From an uncultured Eubacteriales bacterium (GTDB lineage: Bacteria > Bacillota > Clostridia > Christensenellales > Aristaeellaceae), in the NCBI GenBank assembly GCA_902765395.1, contig CACWZP010000012.1, positions 35,193-99,192 of the forward strand: DNA of 64,000 nucleotides. The letters are read 5' to 3'. Position numbers and translations under genes: made by a program. This document shows positions 33,681 to 41,362 of the stretch, in pieces. The notes under the pieces are model-generated. The model ran no database searches, was not told the DNA's origin, and worked only from the letters and a program-made list of their open reading frames with translations. Numbering within the stretch: the first letter of the stretch is position 1; each line of letters begins with the position of its first letter.

Positions 33681-33933
33681 GGGGCTGTCTCAGAATGAGA
33701 CAGCCCTGAATGGTTGTCATGCGAAGGGTATACTCTCATAGGCAAATGAATTGGCGCTGCACGCCATGAATTGACTGCTGCGCAGTCATGATTTGCACCT
33801 GCGGTGCATGATTTGAATTGCGCCTTCCCATGCCCGGAGGGCAAATCACGCACGAAGTGCAATTCATGCCCGAAGGGCAATTCACGCACCGAAGGCGCAA
33901 TTCATTGGGGCTGTCTCAGAATGAGACAGCCCC
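33681..33933. repeat. Octamer-punctuated hairpin array, copy 1
   Basis: A perfect hairpin (GGGCTGTCTCA, loop GAA, TGAGACAGCCC) at 33682-33706 and its 12-bp twin at 33907-33933 bracket a symmetrical array. Left half: ATGAATTG/ATGATTTG octamers at 33746, 33766, 33788 and 33808 separated by mini-hairpins (GGCG/CGCC, ACTGC/GCAGT, GCACC/GGTGC). Right half: reverse-complement octamers at 33842, 33860, 33878 and 33898 separated by GCCC/GGGC-type hairpins. AATTGCGCCTTC (33816-33827) pairs with GAAGGCGCAATT (33891-33902). On the minus strand the 33681 hairpin is followed by TTTTT, so it probably ends the ABC operon transcript. A second copy lies at 41151-41362. Confidence 0.85.
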
Positions 33934-33958: not shown

Positions 33959-34840
33959 TTATCCCTTCACAGCGCCGGCGATGAAGCTGTCCTGAATCTG
34001 CTTGCTCAGGAACACATACACCAGCAGCGTGGGGATGGTGGCGATGGACAGCGCCGCGCCGATGGGGCCCCAGTCGGTGGTGTACTGGCCGGAGAGGGCC
34101 TGCACGCCGACAGGCAGCGTCTTGAGGGAATCCTTGCTGATGAACACGTTGGCGAACATCAGCTCGTTCCAGCACTGCAGGAACGTGTAGATGCCGACCG
34201 TCGCCACGGCGGGCATCATCAGCGGCGCGATGATGCGGATGAACGTGCCCCACACGCCGCAGCCGTCGATGAAGCAGGCCTCGTCCAGGTCATAGGGGAT
34301 GTCGCCCATGAAGCCCACGGAGATCAGTATGCCCATGGCCAGTGAGAACGCGGAGTAGGGGATGATCAGCGCCCAGTAGCTGTTCAGCATATGCACTCTG
34401 GCCAGCGTGGTGTACAGCGGCACGATGGACGCATGGATCGGGATCGTAAGGCCCAGCATGAAGAACTTGTGGGTGGTCTTACTCAGCTTCCAGTCCAGGC
34501 GCGTCATGGCGTAGGTGGCCATGATGGAGGCCACCAGCGTGATCAGGATGGTGGACACCGCCACGATGACGCTGTTCAGGAAGTACTGGGGCATGTTGCC
34601 CGTGTTCATGGCCCGGGTGTAGTTCTCCCAGACCCAGTACTTGGGCAGGCCGATGACGTTTTCGCCGAAGATTTCAGCGTTGTTTTTCAGCGAGAAGGTC
34701 AGCATCCAGTAGACCGGGAACAGGCTGATGAAAGCCCAGATGACCAGCACGACATAGGACGCGATCTGGCCCGCGGTTTTCTTGGGTTTCTTGTTCGACC
34801 TCACAGGAGGATACTTTTTATCAAGAGTCGCTGTATTCAT
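33959..34840 (-). CDS. Carbohydrate ABC transporter permease (MalG type, CUT1)
   Basis: 293 residues, six membrane helices. The EAA loop, which couples to the ATPase, is seen as DLDEACFIDGCGVWGTFIRI (about residues 192-211). Third gene of a binding protein, MalF-type, MalG-type operon; its ATG overlaps the MalF-type stop by 4 bp. No ATPase gene follows, so a shared MsmX-type ATPase encoded elsewhere is likely, as is known for CUT1 systems in Firmicutes. The transcript appears to run into the hairpin array before terminating. Confidence 0.95.
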   Translation of the reverse strand: MNTATLDKKYPPVRSNKKPKKTAGQIASYVVLVIWAFISLFPVYWMLTFSLKNNAEIFGENVIGLPKYWVWENYTRAMNTGNMPQYFLNSVIVAVSTILITLVASIMATYAMTRLDWKLSKTTHKFFMLGLTIPIHASIVPLYTTLARVHMLNSYWALIIPYSAFSLAMGILISVGFMGDIPYDLDEACFIDGCGVWGTFIRIIAPLMMPAVATVGIYTFLQCWNELMFANVFISKDSLKTLPVGVQALSGQYTTDWGPIGAALSIATIPTLLVYVFLSKQIQDSFIAGAVKG

Positions 34841-41146: not shown

Positions 41147-41150
41147 AGAG

Positions 41151-41362
41151 ACTATCTCAAATGAGATAGTTCCCATGAGTTGTGCCTTTGGCGCATGAAT
41201 TGGCCTTGCGGCCATGATTTGCCCTCCGGGCATGAATTGCGCTGTGACGCATGGGATAAGGCGCAATTCCAATCATGCACCAAGGCGACAAATCCAAATG
41301 GTTTGTTGCCTTGGCGCAAATCATGTGCAAAGCACAATTCATGGCGCGAAGCGCCAATTCAT
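41151..41362. repeat. Octamer-punctuated hairpin array, copy 2
   Basis: Starts with ACTATCTCA-AA-TGAGATAGT (41151-41170), related to the TCTCA/TGAGA hairpins of copy 1. Left octamers: ATGAGTTG 41175, ATGAATTG 41195, ATGATTTG 41214, ATGAATTG 41232, separated by mini-hairpins such as GGCC-TTGC-GGCC and GCCC-TCC-GGGC. Right octamers: CAATTCCA 41264, CAAATCAT 41317, CAATTCAT 41335, CAATTCAT 41355, separated by GTGC/GCAC- and GGCGC/GCGCC-type hairpins. The gap between convergent genes (TPR and TIGR04086) is filled by it. Confidence 0.82.

Follow-up and report, generated by a model that had tools for sequence, protein, structure and literature searches.

A mirrored octamer array from an uncultured Eubacteriales bacterium belongs to a repeat family linked to S23/IVP proteins and is probably an orphan mobile element

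The window analyzed here, a stretch of 64,000 nucleotides from an uncultured Eubacteriales bacterium, contains a mirrored array of an octamer word (ATGAATTG and variants) with small hairpins filling the gaps, and arrays of ATGAATTG go together with a single clade of the S23/IVP four-helix-bundle proteins (PF05635), a family also encoded in the intervening sequences of 23S rRNA genes. Membership of the window array in this IVP-linked family is well supported by its word and its design. We interpret it, with a probability of roughly 0.6, as an orphan, non-autonomous copy of an S23/IVP-linked mobile element that was inserted beside a terminator.

The array spans positions 33746-33905 of the window and lies between protein-coding ORFs; an Rfam scan of the window returned four tRNAs only. 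Its parts, its surroundings and the second copy in the window are as follows:

33681..33706, minus strand: 26-nt perfect hairpin GGGGCTGTCTCA-GAA-TGAGACAGCCC with a T-run on the minus strand, intrinsic-terminator-like, for the ABC operon
33707..33745: 39-nt stretch from the first hairpin to the first word
33746..33815, plus strand: half-array of four words and three small hairpins
33746 and 33766 (ATGAATTG), 33788 and 33808 (ATGATTTG), plus strand: left words
33814-33827 with 33891-33904: 14-nt long-range inverted repeat TGAATTGCGCCTTC / GAAGGCGCAATTCA, closing the centre
33832..33842, plus strand: central small hairpin GCCC-GGA-GGGC
33842..33905, minus strand: mirrored half-array of four reverse-complement words, two with a variant base, and three small hairpins
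33842 (CAAATCAC), 33860 (CAATTCAT), 33878 (CAATTCAC) and 33898 (CAATTCAT), minus strand: right words
33907..33933, minus strand: second copy of the 26-nt hairpin, adjoining the outer word
33959..34840, minus strand: ORF with its 3' end toward the array, presumably an ABC-transporter permease (named from sequence features)
about 41147..41362, plus strand: second array copy with an outer hairpin and words at 41176 (ATGAGTTG), 41195, 41214 and 41232, and at 41317, 41335 and 41355

The initial annotation had described four octamers on one side and their four reverse complements on the other; the words are all in place, but on the right only two match a left word exactly in reverse complement, the other two being off by one base (GTGA- for ATGA-). 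Its statement that the stems are always complementary applies to six of the seven small hairpins, which are perfect by reading, whereas the hairpin at 33886-33898 contains an A.C mismatch. With the two variants and the A/T variant counted the array holds eight words, and thus a 7-8-nt word at least five times in mirrored arms; when it is oriented as in IVP-bearing relatives, the half-array at 33746..33815 is the 3' arm (by reading). The bracketing hairpin is indeed duplicated, with 26 identical nucleotides (GGGGCTGTCTCAGAATGAGACAGCCC) at 33681 and 33907, i.e. on either side of the array, and the T-run reported for the left copy is seen on the minus strand. The GC-rich hairpin with T-run of an intrinsic terminator is accordingly found at 33706-33682 of that strand, in the bracketing hairpin only and not in the array. 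Hairpin GGCTGTCTCA-TGAGACAGCC (window 33681 and 33907) occurs at 12 places in the genome, several of them without an array.

The expectation that the octamer exceeds its random frequency and recurs in the genome was borne out. ATGAATTG occurs nine times in the window against 1.2 expected, a number reached in 0 of 100 shuffles, and words paired at a distance of 8-18 nt gave 39 matches at 15 loci of the own genome, against none for the reversed pattern; partial copies at about six further places (C1:2518, C2:102143, C2:187019, C4:21148, C4:127111 and C11:37804) were recognized in DNA comparisons. The copies stand beside unrelated genes (by reading). Arrays are present in three of 27 relatives of the same genus (G013, G014 and G018), and in a fourth, G022, a single pair was seen that looks like chance. 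When one genome was scanned per species, at least 117 stretches showed the word pattern, many from uncultured gut or rumen Clostridia; among the 117 listed, several come from other phyla and reflect chance or tandem repeats. Of 391 genomes of the class, 28 contain three consecutive words, and one contains the reversed pattern.

The stems of the arrays covary strongly. At least three Watson-Crick end pairs are formed in 62% of 384 distinct gaps from outside the own genome, compared with 12% after shuffling of letters and 15% after swapping of 3' halves; the same measure gives 87% for the 30 gaps of the own genome, with 16% and 43% for the two controls, the latter value arising because the own stems resemble one another. 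The outermost pair is Watson-Crick in 92 of 99 distinct 12-nt gaps, and all four types occur (AT 32, CG 31, GC 17, TA 12, next to a single G-U), in agreement with the earlier reading that structure rather than stem sequence is kept; word sequence and unit spacing are constant across copies while the stems vary. Gaps of 8, 10, 12 or 14 nt together comprise 1059 pair cells, of which 908 hold Watson-Crick pairs and 31 hold G-U. An end-anchored stem is present in 341 of 454 gaps, with three-nucleotide loops in 195 and four-nucleotide loops in 73. Most of the three-nucleotide loops are closed by C-G (174 of 195), and 87 read TNC on the word strand, which is GNA on the other strand; C-GNA-G is an unusually stable DNA mini-hairpin. 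A difference in wobble pairs between the strands (17 vs 33, p 0.03) is too weak to build on and comes only from gaps with at most one non-Watson-Crick pair, a selection that lowers G-U. The pattern of loops and pairs points more to single-stranded DNA than to RNA but does not settle the choice. Since the design is strand-symmetric and the stems are mostly Watson-Crick, recognition as single-stranded DNA would be favoured.

The link to IVP genes emerged from the arrays themselves. In two of the stretches fetched by the word pattern (L059 and L115) an ORF between separate half-arrays was found by eye, and a profile built from these two ORFs matched five more in the same 117 listed stretches, plus a distant one in L092. 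Seven of the 117 listed stretches, all fetched by the word pattern alone, thus carry an IVP gene at the array; the proteins belong to one subfamily of PF05635, and three of the seven were also assigned to TIGR02436 in the scan. The structural model of the IVP protein (pLDDT 91) matches the S23 proteins PDB 2rld and 2gsc and, more weakly, Avd, the accessory protein of diversity-generating retroelements (DGR; 4dwl/8ub7). In the reverse direction the profile matched 54 of the 391 class genomes at E ≤1e-30, covering several IVP clades. The best five of 30 loci fetched by the profile all have ATGAATTG words around the gene; among the other 25, L204 has a few degenerate words, an octamer array stands at some distance from the gene in L220 and L225, and no more than one word was seen in any of the rest. 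Altogether an IVP gene stands within or beside an array of ATGAATTG words at 12 loci of relatives, whereas the window array, which shares this word, has no cognate IVP gene. Across the 391 class genomes arrays occur in 28 and IVP in 54, and both occur together in 20 against 3.9 expected (Fisher p 2.7e-13, kinship uncorrected). The top-scoring octamer-clade IVP was found in five of the class genomes sampled, all five with arrays.

The reverse does not hold for the arrays: eight of the 28 array-bearing class genomes have no IVP at 1e-30, and octamer-clade IVP is present in five of the 28 and absent from 23. Most arrays seen are therefore orphans, standing in genomes without octamer-clade IVP. 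The own genome, which is 95.9% complete, gave no match to PF05635, and none of the same-genus IVP loci that were read stands on ATGAATTG words, so that continued mobility of these copies is doubtful. The same-genus IVP genes (L169, L173, L190, L192, L194 and others) are instead bracketed by inverted tandem heptamers of other sequence, such as GGGATTA, GGGAACA, GGGAGTA and AATGAGG.

Other IVP clades have words of their own (AGCTAAAT, ATGAAAT, AGTGATAT, CGATAT and more), and their loci, where read by eye, display the mirrored, hairpin-spaced layout too. Of 143 IVP genes, 108 are flanked by a 7-mer present in five or more copies, compared with 1.5% of 715 shuffles, and in a paired control such a repeated 7-mer was present in 45 of 57 near flanks and 5 of 57 distant flanks; the IVP sample favours proteins related to the octamer clade (E ≤1e-30; 80 of the 88 remaining places were fetched). 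When the word labels are placed on a tree of 141 IVPs, 40 changes are needed, compared with 106.9 when shuffled, and 0 of 200 shuffles were as low; the word classes were named after the top words had been seen, and of the 147 IVP loci 22 have no repeated word and 15 have another word. AGCTAAAT corresponds to one IVP clade, and the 11 entries with ATGAATTG fall into one supported clade, of which L203 with ATGATATG is a member as well. Arrays of AGCTAAAT were found in 12 of 12 genomes chosen for the IVP of that clade (two with only one or two matches) and in 6 of 14 chosen without it. Where the flanks were complete and the word occurred five times or more (105 IVP loci), the words lie mainly upstream of the gene in 66, on both sides in 37 and mainly downstream in 2. 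IVP genes are also found on plasmids and phages (26 records matched), and nine of 11 such loci that were read carry a word in five or more copies. Seven of the nine belong to other phyla, namely cyanobacteria, Bacteroidota (Bernardetia) and a spirochaete (Treponema), and the remaining two are gut phage clones; L420 (Monoglobus) and L427 (Nostoc) have fewer than five copies. The correlation of word and IVP would equally arise if a single DNA unit had simply been inherited by common descent.

It is likely that the array is a mobile element. At the window site the relative G018 has flanks that are 96.2 and 99.7% identical (L379), with one ordinary terminator hairpin in place of the succession of hairpin, array and hairpin. 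Eight of 20 loci fetched for this site, the own one included, could be aligned on both sides, and none of the seven others has an octamer array; G009 has a TTTTAGG-type array there. The site of the second copy is without an array in G018, is occupied by a degenerate array of opposite orientation in G014, and carries arrays of other words in G022 and G027. The spacer between two genes that we take to be dapA and dapB (L338-L357) carries the octamer array in the own genome and in G013, GGGAGCA-type heptamers in G018 and G026, GGGAGTA in G010, GGGATTA in G016, further words in others and none in some, i.e. about seven different words, counted by eye, among species of one genus; this spacer is therefore a repeated target, or the words were replaced in place. 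A script applied to 31 copies from four genomes detected a hairpin adjoining the array, opposite to the IVP position, in 26 of them, and these hairpins differ in sequence. Two of the 26 (L037 and L410) proved on inspection to be internal artefacts, the script overlooked the outer word in L041, L042 and W2, and L402, L407, L411 and L416 (4 of 20 loci) are outside the count. Clear target duplications, the mark of MITEs and insertion sequences, did not emerge: an automatic test found 9 nt or more of the outer hairpin repeated across the array in three of 31 copies, and several more look by eye like decayed flanking repeats. At the second-copy site of G014 (L372) a MITE-like insert with the ends ATACTAAACTCAA / TTGAGTTTAGTAT lies inside the degenerate array.

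A full element would then consist of mirrored half-arrays of one family-specific 7-8-nt word, with small hairpins as spacers, and of a gene for an IVP four-helix bundle directly downstream of the array or between the halves; in the window copy the IVP gene would have been lost or never present. We infer that an IVP oligomer recognizes the word repeats on a folded single strand, in which the hairpins would keep the words unpaired or at helix junctions. Through such putative binding IVP may read its word, and thereby mark the two ends of the element for copying or regulate the IVP gene, and nucleic acid would be cut or copied by a putative partner. Insertion may prefer a terminator hairpin behind a stop codon, so that the host transcript would now carry a structured 3' UTR.

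Some of these observations could be accommodated by an array that acts as RNA: lying in a 3' UTR or leader, its structure would protect or regulate transcripts, and IVP would bind it as RNA in the manner of Avd. The strong predicted RNA folding of the array (z = -9.3 and -10.8 for the two strands) and the position of the words mostly 5' of IVP genes would fit this, as would the listing of the similar Gut-1 motif as certainly RNA ('Y'), with 'n' for cis-regulatory, in the table of the 2010 paper, as far as its accessible part goes (PMC2864571). The fold of IVP matches Avd of the DGR ribonucleoprotein (4dwl, TM-score 0.79, Foldseek E 0.029), with only 13% identity between the two, and this Avd-like fold would be compatible with recognition of RNA. 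The scarcity of G-U (31 of 1059 pair cells vs 908 Watson-Crick), the preference for three- over four-nucleotide loops (195 vs 73) and the placement of copies beside unrelated genes argue against it, however, and we regard this account as unlikely though worth serious consideration. The initial annotation had proposed a 3' UTR element, and the array does lie 3' of the ABC permease ORF, beside a terminator-like site; as a full account, the stand-alone 3' UTR RNA was dropped on the evidence of the IVP link and the empty sites.

It is more doubtful still that an unrelated transposase moves the array in trans, as for MITEs or REPINs, with IVP being a passenger or a co-user of target sites. This would suit the own genome, which has arrays and no IVP, the 23 of 28 array-bearing class genomes without octamer-clade IVP, the terminator-like appearance of the hairpins beside the outer word, and the arrays of different words side by side at G112:C59, G112:C61 and G436:C9. 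Yet the IVP clade predicts the word, and a passenger would not need matching words. For Y1, the transposase family covered, the own genome has two matches to Y1_Tnp (C9:8015 and C4:4714); no array lies near either by coordinates, the nearest seen being about 16 kb off (C4:21148), and Y1 transposase was therefore rejected as the partner. Finally, perfect stems could stem from mutation, through template-switch correction of quasi-palindromes, without selection, the arrays being decaying junk. All four pair types and few G-U are also expected from frequent palindrome repair; nevertheless the words and unit spacing stay constant while the stems change, and repair leaves both the clade-specific words and the IVP link unexplained, which renders this account very improbable.

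The reading as an orphan IVP-linked element can be compared with several known systems. The initial annotation knew no named element of this design, a statement that was not supported: Gut-1 RNA (Rfam RF01706) is made up of three small hairpins with copies of the word GUGAAAU between them (PMC2864571, accessible part) and has the half-array design of the window array with another word. The Gut-1 model scores 32.0 bits (33838-33907, minus strand) and 24.3 bits against the window array, below the gathering cut-off of 50, and the alignment places AUGAAUUG/AUGAUUUG of the window opposite GUGAAAU. It exceeds the cut-off at an IVP-flanking ATGAAAT array (L206, 59.6 bits; one of 20 loci scanned). Gut-1 RNA is a half-array of a sister word family. 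The original description presents it as a noncoding RNA of the human gut, known there from human gut data alone, and in its accessible part refers to no mirrored second half and no IVP gene (PMC2864571); in the open-access literature, that part included, we found nothing linking Gut-1 to IVP.

The intervening sequences of 23S rRNA genes resemble the IVP-linked arrays in combining an IVP gene, terminal inverted repeats and heptamers, namely tandem GACAGAT just upstream of the S23 ORF, and mobility is one hypothesis offered for them, with their function left open, in the accessible part of PMC4990558. They lie inside 23S rRNA genes and are excised by RNase III, whereas the window array is intergenic and outside any 23S rRNA gene, has hairpin-spaced words and contains no gene. 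REP/REPIN sequences with their RAYT proteins are likewise short intergenic inverted-repeat units that are proposed to fold as single-stranded DNA or mRNA and, being non-autonomous, depend on a protein in trans (PMC3116915, accessible part). The linked protein is here an IVP four-helix bundle and not a tyrosine transposase, each element carries many words, the word is fixed and the stem sequence free, and no REP-associated Y1 transposase stands next to the window array. CRISPR arrays have identical direct repeats of about 23 nt or more and unique spacers; with words of 8 nt in mirrored order and palindromes as spacers, the array is not one of them. Apart from the heptamers in the accessible part of PMC4990558, no paper linking IVP genes with heptamer or octamer arrays and no account matching the octamer itself was found in the open-access literature; the accessible part of MacGregor 2015 on TAACTGA heptamers (PMC4679880) has no mention of IVP or four-helix proteins.

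Together, word arrays and IVP suggest a widespread, little understood kind of mobile element. We tentatively go further, at somewhat less than even odds, and propose that S23/IVP proteins and word arrays make up a single class of elements, mobile or gene-regulating, that extends across phyla. Each IVP clade would read a 7-8-nt word of its own, which is presented in tandem heptamers or else between mini-hairpins. If true, this would unite 23S rRNA intervening sequences, Gut-1 RNA, the window array and the heptamers beside cyanobacterial IVP genes, and would represent a mobility system without a recognized transposase. The function of S23/IVP and the spread of the 23S intervening sequences are an old open question (PMC4990558, accessible part), and with a short cognate word for IVP clades it becomes one of testing binding and mobility. 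Gut-1, so far filed as a stand-alone noncoding RNA, would gain a linked protein gene and an evolutionary context, and many short intergenic repeats in Clostridia and beside IVP genes of other phyla might be explained.

Individual loci vary in architecture. L034, L035, L040, L041, L403 and L413 have a common central module, in part of about 80-90 nt, with more hairpins (CCCAATCCGCAGGATTG and on). Arrays of two word families lie side by side at G112:C59, G112:C61 and G436:C9, and in the last of these an IVP gene with ATGAAAT words comes after the paired arrays. In L063 (1219-2914) an ORF that we take to be serine-acetyltransferase-like is bracketed by half-arrays, and the right part is duplicated. 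L096 (692-3852) contains four half-arrays in the same orientation, about 1 kb apart and alternating with minus-strand ORFs, much like a cassette array; integron-like cassettes, which this locus suggested, were rejected as a general account since many arrays are mirrored and alone. On the Nostoc plasmid pTCL26-01_B (L426) a four-helix-bundle gene with GTAAAAA repeats lies between annotated cas2 and cas1.
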